Translations under genes and position numbers: made by a program
Shown: positions 5,336-50,714 of the stretch, one piece after another
How positions within the stretch are numbered: the first letter of the stretch is position 1
How the letters are laid out: every line of letters begins with the position of its first letter
NCBI GenBank assembly: GCA_020072585.1
Contig: JAIQGL010000004.1
Location: 372,001-436,000, forward strand
Source: Terriglobia bacterium
GTDB taxonomy: Bacteria > Acidobacteriota > Terriglobia > Terriglobales > Acidobacteriaceae
DNA length: 64,000 nucleotides
Direction: 5' to 3'
Notes under the pieces: generated by a model
What the model saw: the letters and a program-made list of their open reading frames with translations, nothing else
Database searches by the model: none
Told to the model about the DNA's origin: nothing

Positions 5336-7303
5336 TTACCTGCTGGTATGCCGAGGCGGAGTTTCTGCTCCGGTGTCCATGCCCTGCCAGCCGGCTTTTT
5401 CGCCCTGGTTCTGTTCGTCGAGCCATTTTTTTAACGGCGCAAAATAATCCAGGATCGCGGTAGCATCCATCTGGCGCTGGCCGGTGAGGGCTTCCAGTGC
5501 GTCCGGCCAAGGCTTGGTCTTACCCATGGTGAGCATCTTGTTCAGGCGCTCGCCCGCCGCCTTGTTTTTATAAATGGAGCAGCGATGCAGCGGCCCCTGG
5601 AATCCCGCCGTCTGACAAAGCGCGCGCTGAAACTGGAATTGCAGAATGCGCGCCAGAAAGTAACGCACGTAGGGAGTGTTATTCGCGATGTGGAATTTTG
5701 CGCCGGGATCAAAATCAGCCTCGCTGCGCTCCACCGGAGGAGCCACGCCCTGATATTTGGCTTTCAGGTCCCACCATGCTTTGTTGTACTGCGCGGGCGT
5801 GGTCTCGCCGGAAAAGACCTGCCACCGCCACTTATCGATCATCAGGCCGAACGGCAGAAAGGCAATCTTATCCATGGCCTGTTTGAGCAGGTAACCAATG
5901 TCAGCACTCTCCGGCGGCACAGCGTCCAGTAAGCCTACTTCTTTCAGATACTCAGGTGTTACGGAGAGCGCTATGGTATCTCCCACAGCTTCATGGAATC
6001 CATCATTGGCGCTATCTTGAAAGAGCGGGTCCTGGTCTTTATACGCGCGTTGATAAAAATTGTGGCCAAGCTCGTGATGGACGGTCACGAAATCGTCGTC
6101 TTTGATTTCAATGCACATCTTCAGGCGAAGATCTTCTTTCTGGTCGATGTCCCAGGCATTGGCATGGCAGGTAACGTCACGGTCCCGCGGCTTGATAAAC
6201 AATGAGCGTTCCCAGAAAGTCTTTGGCAGCTCGGCAAACCCGAGTGACTTGAAAAAGCCTTCGGCATAGCGGACCATGCCCTGCTCATCGACCTTGTGGT
6301 CTTTGAGGATCTGGGTCAGGTCATAACCCTTGTCGACGCCGGCCGGCGCCACCAGAGGATAGATATTGCCCCACTCCTGCGCCCACATGTTGCCCAGCAG
6401 GTGCGCGGGAATCAAGCCGTCAGGCCGCTCCGCCACTTTTCCGTATTTCTTGATGAGCTGTTTGCGGACGTAGGTGTGCAGGGAAACATAAAACGGCTCC
6501 ACCTGCCGCCACAGACGTTCCACTTCAGCACTGAATTGCTCCGGAGTCATGTCATAGGCGCTCCGCCACATAGCGCCGGTCTCGGGGAATCCCAGCTCTT
6601 TTGCGCCCTGGTTGGAGAGCTGCGCAAAACGAGCATACTTTTCTCTCATGGGCACGGAAATCTTGTGCCAGCCTACCCATGCGTCCAGCAGTTCGTCAGG
6701 ATTGGTGCTGCTGGCCAGAACGCGGCTGAGATCGCCCAGCGAACGGCAGCTTTCCTTGCCATCCGGCCCGGGCTTGCAGTATTTGCCCTTGCCATACATG
6801 CCATCCAGTTTGCTGGCGAGCTCGGTCAGCTCTTTGCGCTCAGCGTCATTGTTAGGCGCTGGCGCCGTGAGCGACAACTTGAGCAACAGGAATTTTCTTG
6901 CCAGAGCGGGCGGCAGCTTCATGCCGTCAAAGCGGCGGGCATCGAGCGCAAACTGGGTCACGGCGGCGGTAAGCTTCTCATTGGCCTGCGCGGCCATGGT
7001 CTCCGTGTCATCGGTAATGAAGTTTTCCTGTACCCAGCCGGCGCGACTGGACCGGACAACGAGGTCCTCAAGCTGATCTTCCGCCTTCTTCATGAACGCC
7101 TGCGCTTCTGCGACGGTAGGCGTCTTTGCCGGACGCAGAGTTTTTGCTTGCGCCGCCGGCTTTTTAGGCGCGTCCTGCGCAAAGGCCGAGCAGACTGCGG
7201 GCAGAATGAGAATGGCCAATCTGATTATTGTCGTTCTAAGTTTTGGCGGCTTTGCTTTTGGAGATCCGGGAATTGTCGATTTGAAAATACGGTGTGAAAA
7301 CAT
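5336..7303 (-). CDS. Secreted M2-family zinc dipeptidyl carboxypeptidase (ACE-like)
   Basis: 655 residues. A signal peptide (TTIIRLAILILPAVCSAFAQ) and an Ala/Lys/Pro linker precede the M2 domain. The zinc motif HHELGH sits near residue 410, with the third ligand in GFHEAVGDT about 24 residues later. Other family features include GSDANDGFHEA-like spacing and the PFGLMIDKWRW segment. M2 enzymes remove C-terminal dipeptides from peptides; bacterial members are exported and probably serve peptide scavenging. The start is well supported by GGGAGGAG 2-8 nt upstream. The length matches single-domain ACE homologues. It is a single gene with its own terminator. Confidence 0.93.
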   Translation of the reverse strand: MFSHRIFKSTIPGSPKAKPPKLRTTIIRLAILILPAVCSAFAQDAPKKPAAQAKTLRPAKTPTVAEAQAFMKKAEDQLEDLVVRSSRAGWVQENFITDDTETMAAQANEKLTAAVTQFALDARRFDGMKLPPALARKFLLLKLSLTAPAPNNDAERKELTELASKLDGMYGKGKYCKPGPDGKESCRSLGDLSRVLASSTNPDELLDAWVGWHKISVPMREKYARFAQLSNQGAKELGFPETGAMWRSAYDMTPEQFSAEVERLWRQVEPFYVSLHTYVRKQLIKKYGKVAERPDGLIPAHLLGNMWAQEWGNIYPLVAPAGVDKGYDLTQILKDHKVDEQGMVRYAEGFFKSLGFAELPKTFWERSLFIKPRDRDVTCHANAWDIDQKEDLRLKMCIEIKDDDFVTVHHELGHNFYQRAYKDQDPLFQDSANDGFHEAVGDTIALSVTPEYLKEVGLLDAVPPESADIGYLLKQAMDKIAFLPFGLMIDKWRWQVFSGETTPAQYNKAWWDLKAKYQGVAPPVERSEADFDPGAKFHIANNTPYVRYFLARILQFQFQRALCQTAGFQGPLHRCSIYKNKAAGERLNKMLTMGKTKPWPDALEALTGQRQMDATAILDYFAPLKKWLDEQNQGEKAGWQGMDTGAETPPRHTSR

Positions 7304-7768: not shown

Positions 7769-7977
7769 TGTCTTAAAATGTCTCCTTTGGATACCAACGA
7801 GGGTACCATCGCGGCGGCTCTGCTTTTGCCGTCTGAGCGTGCGATTCAAACAGCAGAAACCAGGAACATGGACGAATCCAACCGATCTCGCCAGGCATCT
7901 TTTCAACATTCATGATTTCTGGAAACATGTTCTTGAAAAGTATGGGTTACTGAAAACAGCAATACGAAGGGACCATC

Positions 7978-8460
7978 ATGACCAATGAGAAATTGCTAGT
8001 GTCAGTGGCATTGAACGCCTGGAACACAAATATCGCGAGAGCCGAGAAGACGTTTTCCGGCCTCACTCAGGAACAACTCCAGAAGGAAGTTGCGCCAGGC
8101 AAGAACCGCCTGATTTACGTGTGGGGACACCTGGCTGCCGTACACGATGGAATGTTGCCTCTGCTCGACTTCGGGCCGCGGCTCCATCCTGAACTTGATG
8201 CCTCGTTTTTGACCAATCCTGATAAGACAACGCCAAATCTACCTACAGCGGAGGAAGTGCGGAAAGCCTGGAATAACGTGAACCGCAAATTGTCCCAGGG
8301 ATTTGCCAATCTGCAACCGGAGCAGTGGCTGCACAAACATACTGCTGTATCGGACGAAGACTTTGCCAAAGAGCCATGGCGTAATCGCTTTGCCATCCTG
8401 CTGAGCCGTACGACTCATGTTGCATATCACCTGGGCCAGGCAGCGTTGGTTCCGAAGTAA
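7978..8460 (+). CDS. DinB-like metal-binding four-helix protein
   Basis: 160 residues of the DinB/YfiT-like fold: a first helix (LVSVALNAWNTNIARAEKTF), a conserved His in VWGHLAAVHDGM and a second His pair in TTHVAYHLGQAAL, the usual metal ligands. Family members bind a divalent metal; several are thiol-dependent transferases, but the substrate cannot be read from the sequence. It is a single gene and the start is the first ATG. The name reflects fold similarity to damage-inducible DinB of Bacillus, not the DNA polymerase. Confidence 0.85.
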   Translation: MTNEKLLVSVALNAWNTNIARAEKTFSGLTQEQLQKEVAPGKNRLIYVWGHLAAVHDGMLPLLDFGPRLHPELDASFLTNPDKTTPNLPTAEEVRKAWNNVNRKLSQGFANLQPEQWLHKHTAVSDEDFAKEPWRNRFAILLSRTTHVAYHLGQAALVPK

Positions 8461-28927: not shown

Positions 28928-29284
28928 TTAGCTGGCTGGTGGAAGTTGCGGCGGGCTTTGGCGCTGGCCGGCAAGGCGCTCAAAGTGGCCGGCATTGGCC
29001 GTTTCTCGCTGGGTGATGATGTCGAGAAATTCGCGGTTGGCCTGGGCGCGAAGCTCGCCAACAGCAATGTGCATGGCGGCAATGCGCGTGGAGGGAAGAA
29101 AGTCGACTTGCTGGAGTCTCTTGAGCTCCTGCATGGTCAGTTCAAATCCAGCATTCATTTCGGCAATGGCGCGGTAAATGTAGGCCTTGACCGGCAGCAG
29201 CTTGGCTGCGGGTTGGGTTTGGGTTTGAGTTTGCAGTTGATGTTGCGCGAGGTGGATGGAGCGTTTAGCTTTATGCGTAGCCAT
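28928..29284 (-). CDS. Small helical protein downstream of HTH-leader cassette 1
   Basis: 118 residues. A short basic start (MATHKAKRSIHLAQHQ) and a Gln/Thr run (QTQTQTQ) precede a helical body (VKAYIYRAIAEMNAGFELTMQELKRL, AMHIAVGELRAQANREFLDIIT). There is no signal peptide. AAGGAGGGCAACC, the 3' end of the conserved leader, directly precedes the ATG, which supports expression. It shows no similarity to the protein in the same place in cassette 2 (50221). Function is unknown. Confidence 0.65.
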   Translation of the reverse strand: MATHKAKRSIHLAQHQLQTQTQTQPAAKLLPVKAYIYRAIAEMNAGFELTMQELKRLQQVDFLPSTRIAAMHIAVGELRAQANREFLDIITQRETANAGHFERLAGQRQSPPQLPPAS

Positions 29285-29285
29285 G

Positions 29286-29353
29286 GTTGCCCTCCTTGGG
29301 GGCGATTCTGGTTAGGGCGCGTTCGGTGTTCATGCACCGGGCGCTGCCCGTTA
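29286..29353 (-). ncRNA. Conserved hairpin leader, copy 1
   Basis: 68 nt between the HTH gene and the next start codon, almost identical to 50154-50220. It folds as an outer stem GGGC(A)GC/GCGCCC, an internal loop, an inner stem CGGTG/CACCG and a 6-nt loop, then single-stranded sequence ending in AGGAGGGCAAC. The small hairpin GGGC-AGC-GCCC would exclude the outer stem, so two states are possible. It may be a cis-regulatory RNA or a DNA repeat. Confidence 0.6.
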
Positions 29354-29361
29354 AATGGTGG

Positions 29362-29628
29362 TTATTTCTTTTTTGGTTTGCGAGGCACGGGTGATTTGGC
29401 CTGTGCCTTTTGTTTTGACTTCTGGTGACGGGTCTTTCTGCCGTTGGCGATCTTCGGCAGAAGTTGTTGTAGCTGTTGAATTTCTTTTTCAGTCCAGAGA
29501 TGCAGCGTCATCTTGCCGCTCGTAACGGATTTCGGTGCCGGAACTTTTTTTGCCTTAATATATTTACTCAATGCAGCTTGGGTGATACCTAGCTTTTTAG
29601 CTGCTTGATGAGTTGAATAATAGGTCAT
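29362..29628 (-). CDS. Small MerR/excisionase-like HTH protein, cassette 1
   Basis: 88 residues. The HTH (YSTHQAAKKLGITQAALSKYI) and a wing-like segment (MTLHLWTEKEIQQLQQLL) are followed by PKIANGRKTRHQK and a Lys-rich tail. It is clearly paralogous to the protein at 49859-50143: 12 of the 13 residues in PKIANGRKTR[H/Y]QK are identical. It is a DNA-binding protein by fold. It is transcribed away from the PIN gene, with 132 nt between the two starts. No ribosome site precedes the ATG; the likely -10 lies 9 nt upstream, which suggests a leaderless mRNA. Confidence 0.8.
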   Translation of the reverse strand: MTYYSTHQAAKKLGITQAALSKYIKAKKVPAPKSVTSGKMTLHLWTEKEIQQLQQLLPKIANGRKTRHQKSKQKAQAKSPVPRKPKKK

Positions 29629-29637
29629 TTGTCATCA

Positions 29638-29663
29638 ATGATAACGTTATCTTGGACAAGATC
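29638..29663 (-). promoter_or_regulatory. Promoter and palindrome of HTH gene 1
   Basis: On the minus strand TATCAT (29643-29638) lies 9 nt before the ATG, the same spacing as in cassette 2. The perfect 12-bp palindrome GATAACGTTATC (29640-29651) overlaps it and is a likely operator for the HTH protein or a partner. A weak -35 (TTGTGA) lies about 18 nt further upstream. Confidence 0.5.
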
Positions 29664-29760: not shown

Positions 29761-30846
29761 ATGGAAGATTTCAGACTAGATCAATTTATCCGATCCGATG
29801 CTCTTGCAGATCTGAACGAATTTCGCAAACGCAGTCCAGTCCTTCGAGAGGTAACTGGGGAGCCAATTCAAATTCGGCTAGTCCTAGATGCCTGTATTAT
29901 CCAACGAGAGCTCAGATTTCGCCTCCGGCATAAAAGAAAAGCTGAGGCGAGAACTGCCCTGCAAGAAATCCTGGATTCAGGAACGGTTGTGCCTTTTGCT
30001 CCTCCGAAACTCATCGAAGAAGTTGAGGAACATGCCGCAGAGATTGCCGTTTACTGTCAGGTTAGTGTCGAACGAGTTCGACAAGAGTGGGCGCATCTGC
30101 AAAAGAAGATTCATTTTTATGAACCGGAAACGCAAAACCCTATTGGATGTATTGATCCCGACGATGAGCCATATCGGCAAGTATGTATTGAAATAGGCGC
30201 TCATGCAGTCTACACGAGGGACAATCACTTTAAATCTATGGGGGTTCCGACGATCAACGTTGACCTAGATCACATGCTCCGCAAAAACGCCCGAGCTTCC
30301 AGTATTAAATTAACAGTAAGTATTGGTTCCACCTTTAGTTTAATGATCAGTTTTAGCCTGCTCAAAGAGCTTTGGGGGTTAGCGTATAAAGGAATTCAGA
30401 AAATACCAACACCAATAAAAATTGGTATTCTTGCCGCCACCGCGGCCGCATTCATACATCCTCGATCCCGAGCCAAGATCATCGAAGCTGGAACATTCCT
30501 TTGGACAAAGCTTAATGATCCAAGAGTTAAAGCCGTTTTGTCATCCCTTGCTTCTCAAATGTACGAGGCATGCGAAATTGCTAAGAATACCTCTAAAGAG
30601 ATCGAGGATTCTCTGCCCAGCCCACAAAAACGGTACGCTATTCATTTTGCAAGAGAGGTATGTGCAATTGAAAGGCGGCCTCTAACTCTGGCTGAAATTG
30701 CAAGCTATATGAAAAAAGCAGGGTATATTACACGGTCCAAGAATTTTGCTGCATATTTACGGCGATTGCTGCATGGCAGTTCGAATTTCCTTGAGGTAGC
30801 GCCTGGTTATTGGATTTTACGGATCAGTGAGCCGAAATCTGCTTAA
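29761..30846 (+). CDS. PIN-domain protein with membrane segments and C-terminal winged helix
   Basis: 361 residues. Residues ~38-180 are a PIN nuclease domain: RLVLDACIIQRELRF (first Asp), PPKLIEEVEEHA (Glu) and a DDEPYRQVCIEIGAHAVYTRDNHF segment with the late acidic residues. Hydrophobic stretches follow (SSIKLTVSIGSTFSLMISFSL; IKIGILAATAAAFI), then ~60 residues of winged-helix type (RRPLTLAEIASYMKKAGY to EVAPGYWILR). PIN domains are Mg-dependent RNases. A PIN tied to the membrane with a C-terminal winged helix is unusual. The gene is AT-richer than its neighbours and has a weak ribosome site, which suggests transfer. It is divergent from HTH gene 1. Confidence 0.75.
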   Translation: MEDFRLDQFIRSDALADLNEFRKRSPVLREVTGEPIQIRLVLDACIIQRELRFRLRHKRKAEARTALQEILDSGTVVPFAPPKLIEEVEEHAAEIAVYCQVSVERVRQEWAHLQKKIHFYEPETQNPIGCIDPDDEPYRQVCIEIGAHAVYTRDNHFKSMGVPTINVDLDHMLRKNARASSIKLTVSIGSTFSLMISFSLLKELWGLAYKGIQKIPTPIKIGILAATAAAFIHPRSRAKIIEAGTFLWTKLNDPRVKAVLSSLASQMYEACEIAKNTSKEIEDSLPSPQKRYAIHFAREVCAIERRPLTLAEIASYMKKAGYITRSKNFAAYLRRLLHGSSNFLEVAPGYWILRISEPKSA

Positions 30847-48225: not shown

Positions 48226-49575
48226 GTGACTGTTTGTCGATATTGTGCGCGAAAAACGCTCTGGTTCAGTGACGTTCACAGTCGCTGCATCGAAAAGGCT
48301 CGTCAAGGCTATTCTTTCCTTGTTGCTGAAGTGGCTGCTGCCGTGAGTGCGGACAAGTCGTTTGCTAATGTTCGGCCAACCCTAGAGCGCATCAGCAACG
48401 AGCACAAAGTTCTTGCCCCTGAGATGCACGAAGCAATTAAAGAAGGTTGGGCCAACGCCGCCGACCAAATCGGCTTGGCTGGGCCATTGCATGTGGACCG
48501 ACACGCGATTATCGTACATTTCTATGAAGATGCAGGTATTACGGGGAGGGAAATCGCCAATACAAACGGATTCAAGACTGCAACATTTAGCATGATGCTC
48601 TGGCTTGTGATGACAGGCAACCCAATTGCCTCTGAACATCCGCACCCTTTTAACCTAGACAGAGACGAGATTCCTTTGAACTTTTTCGGGAGTGTTGTCT
48701 ATTACCATAAAGTCGGTATTAGGGCTTATGGAAGGACCAATCCAGGTGCAAGTGTCCAGCTTGGGCATGGCCGTTATTATCCCTTCAGTAATTTTATGAC
48801 AGAGCGAGCAGATACCGCGATGCTCAAAGAAATTGATTATGGTGGAATGCTTTTTACGACGAATAATGTATATTTTGGCGGGGAATACAAGAGTTTTCGC
48901 ATTCCGTATGACCGTATTGTTAAACTCAGGCCATATATAGACGGACTGGAAATATCTCGCGATGCCAGTGCGCAATGTGAAGTGTTCAGTGTCGTAAATT
49001 TTTGGCCTACCTGCGGCTGGCTTCTATTTAATTTAGCTCACTTCCTTGCTCAACCTGGAGCGAGGGCGCTCTATGGCGAAGAAAGAAAAATCAGTTTTTC
49101 CGGGAAAAGTCAGCCACAGGCAACAAATTCTGTGAATTCCAGTCAAGCGAAAAAATGGGATGTCTTCATCTCACACGCGAGTGAAGATAAGGACGAATTA
49201 GTTCGGCCATTAGCATCGGCTTTGAAGAATGCCAATATTTCTGTTTGGTATGACGAGTTTTCGTTAAAACTCGGAGACAGCCTGCGAAAGTCCATTGATT
49301 TGGGACTCGCTAATTCCCGTTATGGCATTGTCGTGCTCAGCAAGAACTTCTTTGCAAAGCATTGGCCCGCTCAGGAATTAAACGGATTAGCCATTAAAGA
49401 AGTGGATGGAAACAAGGTCATTCTGCCGATTTGGCACCGAGTGACATTTGAAGAGGTTCGGGCGTTTTCCCCAATACTGGCGGATAGGATCGCCGAAAAT
49501 TCCACTGTGGGGCTTGAGAGATTGGTGCAGCGGATTGTTGAAGTCTTGAAGTCGGGGCATGAAAAATTGCCATAG
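48226..49575 (+). CDS. TIR-domain protein with N-terminal Cys motif and PH-like domain
   Basis: 449 residues. Cys-x2-Cys with a further Cys (CRYCARKTLWFSDVHSRC) opens the protein, a helical part follows, then a region resembling bacterial PH/TerB-linked domains (GGMLFTTNNVYFGGEYKSFRI, PYDRIVKLRPYIDGLEI). Residues ~305-445 are a TIR domain: WDVFISHASEDKDELVRPL, ISVWYDEFSLKLGDSLRKSID, RYGIVVLSKNFFAKHWPAQEL, the last holding the Glu needed for NADase activity in TIR enzymes. This suggests an abortive-infection or stress effector. It starts with GTG, has a weak ribosome site and is AT-richer than its neighbours. No Thoeris or CBASS partner is adjacent. Confidence 0.8.
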   Translation: MTVCRYCARKTLWFSDVHSRCIEKARQGYSFLVAEVAAAVSADKSFANVRPTLERISNEHKVLAPEMHEAIKEGWANAADQIGLAGPLHVDRHAIIVHFYEDAGITGREIANTNGFKTATFSMMLWLVMTGNPIASEHPHPFNLDRDEIPLNFFGSVVYYHKVGIRAYGRTNPGASVQLGHGRYYPFSNFMTERADTAMLKEIDYGGMLFTTNNVYFGGEYKSFRIPYDRIVKLRPYIDGLEISRDASAQCEVFSVVNFWPTCGWLLFNLAHFLAQPGARALYGEERKISFSGKSQPQATNSVNSSQAKKWDVFISHASEDKDELVRPLASALKNANISVWYDEFSLKLGDSLRKSIDLGLANSRYGIVVLSKNFFAKHWPAQELNGLAIKEVDGNKVILPIWHRVTFEEVRAFSPILADRIAENSTVGLERLVQRIVEVLKSGHEKLP

Positions 49576-49650: not shown

Positions 49651-49787
49651 CGCTCCGCTTCGCTGCGCGCTGGCCTACGGCGTAAGGAATCGTCTTTTTT
49701 ACTCCTTTACCCGGCACTTATTCCTCAGCGCGCGATGCGCGCCTCGGAAACGTGGCCGGGCTATTACCAGCCGTCCCTGCCGGGACT
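49651..49787 (+). repeat. Structured dispersed repeat, copy 2 (after the TIR gene)
   Basis: Aligns along its length with 30848-30987. The outer pair is CCCGGC/GCCGGG and the inner hairpin GCGCGC-GAT-GCGCGC (49728-49742). It begins 75 nt after the TIR stop and ends about 35 nt before the promoter of HTH gene 2. A CTGCCGGGACTTTTTTG tail could aid termination. Confidence 0.75.
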
Positions 49788-49821: not shown

Positions 49822-49849
49822 TTGACAATTTGTTATCTATCTCTATCAT
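49822..49849 (+). promoter_or_regulatory. Promoter of HTH gene 2
   Basis: TTGACA (49822-49827), 16-nt spacer, TATCAT (49844-49849). The ATG is only 9 nt past the -10, so the mRNA should start at or within a base or two of the start codon. The block TATCATTGAT-GACA is shared with cassette 1. Confidence 0.7.
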
Positions 49850-49858
49850 TGATTGACA

Positions 49859-50143
49859 ATGATCGCTTATTCGACTCGCGAAGCAGCCGCGAAACTGGGG
49901 GTAACACAAGCAACCCTGAGCACGTACATCAAGGCAGGGAAGATACCTCCTCCAACAATTTTGCAGATTGGGCGACGAACGGTGCATTCATGGACGGAAA
50001 GCGACATTGAGCAGGTCCGCAAACTCTTGCCGAAAATCGCCAACGGCCGGAAGACCAGGTATCAGAAGTTAAGGGAGAAACAAAAGAAGACTGGAGGAGC
50101 ACAGGCGATGGCGCCTATGCTCCAGAAGAAGAAAAAGAAGTAA
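49859..50143 (+). CDS. Small MerR/excisionase-like HTH protein, cassette 2
   Basis: 94 residues. HTH YSTREAAAKLGVTQATLSTYI, second segment TVHSWTESDIEQVRKLL, then PKIANGRKTRYQK and a Lys-rich tail (QKKKKK). It is paralogous to 29362-29628 over the whole HTH. It is predicted to bind DNA, possibly the promoter elements shared by the two loci. There is no ribosome site; the promoter spacing indicates leaderless translation. A TTG two codons upstream is an unlikely start. Confidence 0.82.
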   Translation: MIAYSTREAAAKLGVTQATLSTYIKAGKIPPPTILQIGRRTVHSWTESDIEQVRKLLPKIANGRKTRYQKLREKQKKTGGAQAMAPMLQKKKKK

Positions 50144-50153
50144 AACCTTAACC

Positions 50154-50220
50154 TAACGGGCAGCGCCCGGTGCTTGAACACCGAACGCGCCCTAACCAGA
50201 TCGCCCCGTAGGAGGGCAAC
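50154..50220 (+). ncRNA. Conserved hairpin leader, copy 2
   Basis: 67 nt, differing from copy 1 (29286-29353) at only a few positions, including one in the hexaloop (CTTGAA versus CATGAA). The stems GGGC(A)GC/GCGCCC and CGGTG/CACCG are unchanged. It ends in AGGAGGGCAAC, which places a strong ribosome site immediately before the ATG at 50221. The hairpin sits about 25 nt before that site. Confidence 0.6.
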
Positions 50221-50382
50221 ATGGCTGTTGTCAACGGTAAATTGTATTTTTCCTGGGTGCAACGTTCCCGCCTGTGCATCCCTGATCCCACCGGCATTTC
50301 AGCAAACAGCAATTGGCCAATCGCAATTCGCCAAACCTCCGCGTCTCCGCGCCTCTGCGGCGAGAATGGAGGCCGCCGATGA
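50221..50382 (+). CDS. Small protein downstream of leader 2
   Basis: 53 residues starting MAVVNGKLYFSWVQRSR. The second half is encoded by a low-complexity stretch (CCGCGTCTCCGCGCCTCTGCGG) that occurs as an intergenic repeat in many soil bacteria, so the original protein may have been cut short. The ribosome site is excellent. The stop overlaps the next ATG (ATGA). Function is unknown. Confidence 0.4.
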   Translation: MAVVNGKLYFSWVQRSRLCIPDPTGISANSNWPIAIRQTSASPRLCGENGGRR

Positions 50383-50714
50383 AGCGCATCACGGCGAGCA
50401 AAAGCAAAAAGCCCCGCAAAGTCACTCCGCGCCCCAGGCCGACGCAGACGGCTGACCCACTGCACATGATGGAGCACACGGCCGACGGCGGAAGTTTTAT
50501 CCAGTTTCCGCAGATCAAGGGTAAAAGGCTGGAAAAGATACAGCTACACACCACTGCGGAATATCACTCGATTGATCTGGATTTTGACGACTGGACAGGG
50601 CTCACCCTGAGACTTGGGCCCCGCGTTGCACTGCGCGCTACCTATTTCAACCTGATGAAAGGAAGCAAGACGGTCAAGGAAAAATGCCTGCCGGTTCACC
50701 GGGACGGGGGCTAA
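50379..50714 (+). CDS. Hypothetical basic protein, last gene of cassette 2
   Basis: 111 residues. The front is Lys/Arg-rich (KRITASKSKKPRKVTPRPRPTQ), the rest alternates strands (GGSFIQFPQIKGKRLEKIQL, YHSIDLDFDDWTGLTLRLG). GGAGG lies 7 nt before the ATG, and the start overlaps the preceding stop by 4 nt. No family is recognised; the basic front suggests nucleic-acid binding, which is inference. Confidence 0.55.
   Translation: MKRITASKSKKPRKVTPRPRPTQTADPLHMMEHTADGGSFIQFPQIKGKRLEKIQLHTTAEYHSIDLDFDDWTGLTLRLGPRVALRATYFNLMKGSKTVKEKCLPVHRDGG

Follow-up and report, generated by a model that had tools for sequence, protein, structure and literature searches.

Arrays of paralogous toxin-antitoxin systems consist of many autoregulated modules with distinct specificities that are insulated from one another. 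For phage T4, hairpins that sequester the ribosome-binding site are described for the homing endonuclease genes I-TevI, mobE, and segB, and seg43 has a stable hairpin directly 5' of its ribosome-binding site (PMC2988022, in its passages on these genes). STAXI RNAs are repeated pseudoknots and are described in the same paper that lists the Acido-1 and Acido-Lenti-1 motifs (PMC2864571, in the part dealing with these RNAs). The leader RNA analysed here occurs twice in the window, i.e., the whole 64,000-nt stretch of Terriglobia bacterium contig JAIQGL010000004.1 that was studied, and has relatives throughout this genome, in other Acidobacteriota and in phages.

Two cassettes and their copies in the genome

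Two loci of the window share the order promoter, HTH gene, leader, and ATG, an arrangement noticed in the initial annotation and confirmed from the sequence and its open reading frames (ORFs). Cassette 1 lies on the minus strand. Its promoter region (29640–29659) has a -35-like TTGTCC and a palindrome, GATAACGTTATC, which is a candidate operator 5' of the HTH gene; the assignment comes from the sequence and from the locus-specific palindromes found near this position throughout the family, and in this copy only four of eight positions are symmetric at the fixed centres. The HTH gene (29362–29628) encodes a MerR/excisionase-like winged HTH protein of 88 amino acids with a basic tail, which scores 19.5 bits with the Pfam model HTH_17, below the curated cut-off of 27. 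It is followed by the leader RNA (29279–29355), composed of the hairpin P1, the linker CUAACC, the hairpin P2 with part of the Shine-Dalgarno sequence (SD) and AUGGCU, and by a cargo gene (28928–29284) for a family A protein of 118 amino acids that is predicted to form a two-helix hairpin. Cassette 2 lies on the plus strand and has the promoter TTGACA-N16-TATCAT with a start-proximal region (49822–49858, read from the sequence, with five of eight symmetric positions), an HTH gene (49859–50143; 94 amino acids counted from the ATG; 37.7 bits with HTH_17, above the cut-off) and a leader (50152–50226) recognised by a covariance-model match and by folding. At the leader ATG begins a short ORF of 53 amino acids (50221–50382), the TGA of which overlaps the next ATG (ATGA). 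This second ATG starts the cargo gene (50379–50714) for a family B protein of 111 amino acids, predicted with low confidence to be a beta protein. Cargo proteins of 118 and 53 amino acids had been contrasted initially; the former stands as a member of family A, and the latter is not the real cargo, which is the family B gene. The two leaders had been called nearly identical and are so, with 94% identity over 65 bases (BLAST) and scores of 81.8 bits (cassette 1) and 75.8 bits (cassette 2) with the covariance model R2, which was built from 50 leaders with that of cassette 1 among them.

Some neighbours of the cassettes deserve mention in their own right. A PIN-domain-like protein with a HARE-HTH-like end (29761–30846, plus strand) is divergent from cassette 1. 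A TIR-domain protein (48226–49575, plus strand; best PADLOC match PDC-S66, then ThsB-like) lies directly 5' of cassette 2, and BLAST relatives of it are found within approximately 5 kb of 7 of the 44 copies in the genome, the family check covering the window protein only. A sub-threshold match to Acido-Lenti-1 (49710–49787; L002 1054–1131; 24.6 of 37 bits) is located just 5' of cassette 2, and a weak extra match to the leader model (6790–6843, minus strand; 16.5 bits, E 0.006) is probably due to chance.

When the whole genome (6.9 Mb in 74 contigs) was searched, at least 40 BLAST matches to the leader (the best 40 of 48 candidates) and at least 40 matches to the HTH gene were obtained, and 36 adjacent HTH-leader pairs were identified by coordinates among the matches listed. 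A covariance model, R1, built from 42 leaders of this genome (the leader of L084 is truncated and was excluded from the alignment), located leaders behind the four remaining HTH genes (L101–L104; in L104 approximately 200 nt further on), so that a leader follows every one of the 40 HTH genes listed. With R2 the number of leader matches rose to 63, 23 of them without an HTH gene among the 40 listed. Recurrence on this scale is far beyond chance. DNA homology between the copies is largely confined to a region from about -450 to +550 of the leader, i.e., promoter, HTH gene, leader, and cargo, and farther out only patchy repeats are common to copies, which bears out the proposal of a modular cassette with a conserved structured leader in front of variable genes. 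Among the cassette copies there was no sign of recent transposition, of element ends or of target duplications. In L095 a second leader (5908–5981) lies approximately 0.9 kb behind the first and in front of an A-like ORF, i.e., as tandem units, and L064 and L074 each have two family A genes in succession, the second one diverged and situated about 380–800 nt behind the leader start. Another protein family recurs near 12 of the 44 copies (L066, L070, L073, L075, L079, L082, L083, L085, L100, and three more), and a 110-amino-acid piece of its member in L100 matches the homing-endonuclease-associated repeat HNH_repeat.

Of 150 genomes of the family, 16 have the HTH gene, the own genome among them, and three congeners have 6, 3, and 12 copies of it together with 7, 22, and 22 leaders, respectively. 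Promoter stretches are identical between L166 and L182 and between L171 and L202, which identifies G412 as Candidatus Angelobacter sp. Gp1-AA117 and makes this genus the most likely source of the window. In the congeners G388 and G412, 18 leader copies chosen for having no HTH gene (of 44 matches) all carry cargo of family A (8) or B (10). The flanks of cassette 2 are kept in order in G388, where 10 kb of other genes replace the TIR gene and the cassette; the site is a variable region and not a clean empty site.

Profile HMMs built from clear members identified cargo of the helical family A or the beta family B in 42 of the 44 own loci and gave no match to either in L097 and L100. A short first ORF with a stop that overlaps the real cargo start by four bases (ATGA or GTGA) is found in seven own loci (L062, L069, L071, L072, L073, L075, and L077) and elsewhere in L170 and L178; L104 fits the pattern by its list of starts, and L066, L173, L175, and L177 do not. 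L179 was considered as an HTH-B fusion and rejected, its HTH being truncated, and is read as a decayed copy. Neither family has a significant match in Pfam or PHROGs, or any match in NCBIfam or PADLOC. The AlphaFold model of A has two long helices (pLDDT 78), that of B shows a small beta sheet and has low confidence (pLDDT 63), and searches of PDB structures with the two models, that of B being of this low confidence, gave nothing informative. The same Pfam and PDB comparisons revealed no HNH or GIY-YIG domain in A or B, and across Pfam, PHROGs, NCBIfam, PADLOC, and PDB they resemble no known nuclease, recombinase or toxin. A and B are two new protein families.

Structure and occurrence of the leader RNA

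The leader had been described as one long hairpin. It does fold, but into two hairpins: P1, the sequence of which is largely free, and the small P2, which follows a near-fixed linker, CUAACC (variants CUGACC and CUAGCC). Linker and AUGGCU are the nearly fixed parts and pair with each other through the CC of the former and the GG of the latter. The pairing is conserved, as had been anticipated: in 50 leaders that include distant Acidobacteriota, two-sided changes occur at 15 of 18 pairs, covariation is 0.374 compared with 0.091 for shuffled and at most 0.044 for slid alignments, and the distant leaders swap out entire helices (the search for them took the best 16 candidates per genome, and counts from it are therefore minimum values). 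In 38 viral leaders (see below) covariation is 0.740 compared with 0.186 shuffled and at most 0.098 slid, with 15 two-sided pairs, a number equalled in 23 of 500 shuffles. As both alignments had been made to fit the model structure, the slid controls weigh most. In the own genome the 3' arm of P1 hardly varies, covariation is 0.022 vs. 0.007 shuffled, and three slid versions outscore the model (0.035–0.052), so that covariation within this set is uninformative. RNAalifold did not predict the long P1 from the 42 own-genome leaders; single folds contained P1 in six of eight cases (absent in L100 and L085). The structure is therefore settled by the far leaders only. By their pairing, the leader is a structured RNA.

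The start codon is unpaired to 0.37 in own-genome leaders (43) and to 0.38 in far leaders (53) compared with 0.55 in the controls, which number only 12 ORFs (p 0.02 each), and accessibility of the SD does not differ from that in these 12 ORFs (p 0.18 own, 0.84 far). As the start codon is less accessible and the SD is not, it is the anatomy of the leader that suggests a gating of translation, for which thermodynamic support is weak. If these genes were controlled by a ligand riboswitch or thermometer, this would account for the conserved linker, the two hairpins and the involvement of the ribosome-binding site. P1 is however largely free, there is no aptamer-like conserved core, the genes have no metabolic pathway in common and the ribosome-binding site is predicted to be closed only weakly, all of which makes this explanation very improbable.

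No Rfam family matched over the leader at the gathering score in the window, 10 far loci, and 10 viral or phage loci, and a comparison proposed initially, with Acido-1 (RF01686) and Acido-Lenti-1 (RF01687), came out negative at this score in the same loci, as did that with STAXI. A scan of four loci with loose E-values gave only sub-threshold matches at the leader, to symR (36.4 of 61 bits) and Plasmid_R1162, which were treated as chance. As far as the loci scanned show, the leader is absent from Rfam 15, and no description of the motif was recognised in open-access full-text literature (bioRxiv preprints were outside the scope). Two further candidates were dropped on inspection, i.e., an attC-like site, the repeats being arranged unlike attC, and programmed frameshifting in the A-rich stretch that closes the HTH gene, as the gap between the HTH stop and the leader varies between about 0 and over 100 nt.

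Matches to R2 were found in at least 45 of 396 sampled genomes of the phylum, the own genome and a congener included (best 12 candidates per genome). Those examined in G024, G050, G428, and G451 are without a start codon and probably belong to another element. Six start-less matches from genomes of family f20 (L245, L249, L253, L256, L258, and L259), several with a conserved 3' part (TCGTCCTATGCTGGAGGAAGAGCCAGCC), look like a separate repeated element. Gene context was examined at 73 leader sites outside the own genome (32 + 41). As read from the sequences, the HTH family precedes the leader at only five of these sites (L135, L145, L153, L158, and L162). In a count that left out first ORFs of less than 60 amino acids, a tiny, mostly basic-tailed ORF ends between -12 and +5 of the leader at 25 of the 73; 23 of the 25 were scanned with Pfam, two of the HTH family being left out, and the classes are ribbon-helix-helix, zinc-ribbon-like (a label given by eye) or HTH. 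Pfam assigned the first genes behind the leader (47 of 51, leaving out four B-family genes of G257) to six resolvases, three RadC, two ArdC, and one phage integrase, with an estimated two thirds matching no Pfam family, and the second genes (43 of 52, leaving out nine ORFs that were spurious-looking, repeated or outside the question) included 16 phage integrases, five ArdC, and four resolvases; gene classes were assigned to loci by reading the sequences. At nine of the 16 integrase loci (L139, L140, L151, L157, L227, L240, L248, L251, and L257), a count made without a control, a tRNA gene lies at most 100 nt from, or overlaps, the integrase end, as expected for elements integrated at tRNA genes. 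The downstream genes are variable, as the initial annotation had supposed, and the upstream HTH gene is mostly absent outside this genus.

IMG/VR was searched with a pattern that combined linker, SD core, and start codon, which gave at least 120 stretches, and 80 loci were taken. R2 found full-length leaders (E below 1e-5) in 35 of the 80, with 38 matches. As the pattern fixed linker, SD core, and start codon it supplies part of the R2 scores, so that independent evidence comes from the pairing. For 30 of the 38 leaders the first ORF was suitable for scanning: 11 match HNH_3, others further HNH models, one GIY-YIG, one endonuclease VII, and two Bro-N. The HTH family was found before the leader at none of the 38 viral sites. 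In one viral contig (L313; leader at 7922–8002, minus strand) a different, excisionase-like HTH ORF of 68 amino acids ends right at the leader, and the HTH-leader order is thus also found outside the acidobacterial genomes examined. In Rhizobium phage RHph_N3_2, a complete genome record, a leader precedes an annotated HNH endonuclease gene, and a second leader begins two bases after the stop of EVB98_023. Counting ORFs of at least 45 codons, a stop codon lies between -12 and +8 of the leader at 31 of 62 acidobacterial sites (random points 8%; the six start-less f20 sites and the five HTH-plus-cargo sites were omitted) and at 14 of 36 viral sites (random points 7%; two of the 38 are too near a contig end), and in 21 of 43 copies only in the own genome. 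A leader at the stop of the preceding ORF is the anatomy of a gene arriving with its own 5' leader.

The HTH gene, its candidate operator and its partners

The HTH protein matches PHROG 66 (excisionase and transcriptional regulator) and has a conserved LPKIANGRKTRY motif and a basic tail, together with a strongly diversified reading head and wing; the most variable positions are those of the recognition helix and the wing. In the HTH promoters TTGACA is followed by a palindrome centred 26.5–28.5 bases after it, the sequence of which is specific to the copy. In 40 promoters 5.10 of 8 positions pair compared with 3.97 (sd 0.13) with arms exchanged (0 of 1000), the centres having been picked by eye from these same first 40 promoters and the scan being anchored on the -35; earlier scans, by a per-locus palindrome score or anchored on the ATG, gave a mixed signal. 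A repeat with unchanged settings in an independent set of 19 relatives gave 5.21 compared with 4.33 (sd 0.19; 0 of 2000), where L171 and L202 are one locus and which omits L166 and L182 (one locus, no recognised -35) as well as L183, L184, L188, L197, L199, and L207 (start not found). Similarity of the recognition region and wing correlates with similarity of the operator (r 0.238, 0 of 2000). No correlation is seen with the neighbouring spacer used as control (340 of 2000), and the rest of the HTH protein correlates less with the operator (r 0.175, 13 of 2000). The most similar HTH pair, L061/L094, goes against the trend in the frame used, with an operator similarity of 6 where the mean is 10.2. 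As the recognition region varies together with the palindrome in the gene's own promoter, the HTH protein most likely reads its own operator.

It had been proposed that the HTH protein controls whatever gene follows the leader. The data do not support this, given the occurrence of the HTH family at only 5 of 73 far and 0 of 38 viral sites, the 18 of 18 leader copies that were picked in congeners for having no HTH gene and still carry A or B, and the HTH itself, the recognition region of which tracks the own palindrome and the similarity of which has no detectable link to cargo class (same-class nearest neighbour in 23 of 39 cases, 19.0 when shuffled) or to P1 (Mantel r 0.04). The leader behaves differently, as the nearest neighbour belongs to the same cargo class in 28 of 39 cases for P1, in 30 of 39 for P2 and in 39 of 39 for the first 14 codons (19 when shuffled); by Mantel tests only P2 and the first codons are linked, weakly (r 0.21, 23 of 1000), with an r of 0.04 for P1 and the first codons. 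The simplest reading of these comparisons would be that recombination has shuffled HTH genes against leader-cargo units. No recombinase was seen beside the HTH gene among those neighbours in the window that were examined. A search of viral contigs with the HTH yielded no confirmed relative, one of plasmids with cassette 1 DNA no match, and one of phages only a weak match of 31%.

The lack of HTH-cargo linkage, the sharp borders of the unit and the imperfect palindrome of the leader are also what one would see if the leader were a DNA site for recombination or integration, at which the downstream cargo is exchanged, and not an RNA. We give this very little credence: part of the SD in P2 and the pairing of the linker with the AUG make sense only in RNA, the sequence of P1 is largely free, and the type of leader follows the cargo behind it in the nearest-neighbour counts, which places the exchange upstream, between HTH and leader.

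It is conceivable that the leader is bound by a specific protein, either the small basic DNA-binding protein encoded upstream or the product of the downstream gene, which would repress translation as a feedback control. The tiny ORFs that end at the leader in 25 of 73 far sites would fit such a role, as would the shared cargo class of P1 and P2 nearest neighbours. The upstream proteins however fall into three or more classes, and the remaining 48 sites gave no such protein. With P1 largely free, only the linker could serve as a common binding sequence, the downstream gene products are unrelated, and in the Mantel tests P1 is unlinked to the first codons and P2 only weakly linked. We regard control of this kind as unlikely.

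Genus-specific operons of a toxin-antitoxin-like or regulatory kind must also be considered. Here the HTH protein would be an antitoxin or repressor and A or B an effector, the translation of which is limited by the leader, and orthogonal operators would prevent cross-talk in approximately 40 systems. A DNA-binding gene in first and a small gene in second place, the signature of autoregulation and the many diverged paralogues all agree with this, and so does a comparison of 780 pairs in which no HTH reading heads exceed 82% DNA identity despite five cargo pairs that reach 93–98%, a comparison that applied a length limit to the cargo pieces. Antitoxin and toxin should on the other hand stay paired, whereas the HTH is unlinked to cargo class; the HTH-less copies picked in G388 and G412 would be effectors without antitoxin; A and B are without a PADLOC or NCBIfam match or a significant one in Pfam; and elsewhere the leader accompanies unrelated genes. 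Such operons are therefore an improbable account of the cassettes.

Proposed function and comparison with known systems

The case is strong for the existence of the leader and for its association with mobile genes, its structure and distribution, the correlation between HTH and operator, and the lack of linkage between HTH and cargo all being observed. From these we infer repression by the HTH protein, gating by the leader and mobility of the unit. The leader probably serves mobile ORFs as a portable, structured 5' region gating translation, joined in part of the copies in this genus to an insulated autorepressor HTH module. It would be a 5' UTR that travels with mobile ORFs and often comes to begin at, or a few bases past, the stop codon of a resident gene. 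The leader, in which P2 holds part of the SD and is predicted to be closed by pairing of the linker CC with the GG of AUGGCU, may then insulate the new ORF from ribosomes finishing on the preceding gene, and the ORF start would stay gated until the leader structure opens. Phages would use the leader for HNH and GIY-YIG homing-type genes and acidobacterial integrative elements for operons of recombinase, integrase, ArdC, and RadC genes, while in this genus the leader-plus-ORF unit carries the small protein A or B and has become multi-copy. The HTH gene with its own promoter, placed before 40 copies here, would be an added module, and each HTH protein most likely represses its own promoter via a private palindrome over the -10 element. 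With a private palindrome for each HTH protein, the copies would not silence one another.

It is tempting to speculate further, although we do so with some doubt, that what is conserved in a selfish unit here is the leader itself rather than any of the genes. It would act as a portable RNA start module from which unrelated mobile ORFs are expressed wherever they land and, in one soil bacterial genus, would have been amplified and joined to approximately 40 self-diversifying, mutually insulated repressor-operator pairs in a single genome. If so, phage homing-type endonucleases, the recombination and antirestriction genes carried by integrative elements, and a multi-copy family of Acidobacteriota would all have one structured leader in common. 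The leader could then serve as a sequence-based means of locating mobile genes whose function is unknown, and as a tractable case of how inserted genes acquire a translation start. The 40 diverged repressor-operator pairs in one genome would be a natural data set for the recognition code of winged HTH proteins, and would be equally suited for asking how paralogous regulators avoid cross-talk.

Among known systems, arrays of toxin-antitoxin modules are similar to the cassettes in consisting of many paralogous modules with distinct specificities, autoregulated here as judged from sequence. Unlike in such arrays, the HTH gene is unlinked to its partner gene and the partner also occurs without it; no cognate pair inherited together is seen, neither in the linkage of HTH and cargo nor in the copies of A and B that have no HTH gene. 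The small DNA-binding proteins of the excisionase, HTH_17, and MerR families resemble the HTH protein by the match to HTH_17, above the cut-off for cassette 2 and below it for cassette 1, and by PHROG 66. The diversified reading head and wing, the conserved motif and the basic tail set the cassette HTH apart from these families, and its palindrome, which overlaps the own promoter and tracks the recognition helix, is what an autorepressor would be predicted to have. STAXI RNA is, like the leader, structured and found near genes for antirestriction, integrases, and other DNA handling; it is made up of repeated pseudoknots in its published description, whereas the leader has two plain hairpins (PMC2864571). 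The T4-type hairpins are similar in that mobile nuclease genes lying between phage genes begin with structured RNA (PMC2988022), and RNA structure at the ribosome-binding site of a mobile nuclease gene is likewise found on the viral contigs, going by the pairing and by the HNH and GIY-YIG first genes. As described for the T4 genes, such hairpins belong to single genes, mostly with late promoters (PMC2988022). In the T4-type arrangement translation is repressed by stable sequestration of the SD and a late promoter within the hairpin lifts this repression; in the leader the SD is no more paired than in the 12 control ORFs. The leader, on the other hand, is one homologous two-hairpin motif with a fixed linker and AUGGCU, present in front of many unrelated gene families.
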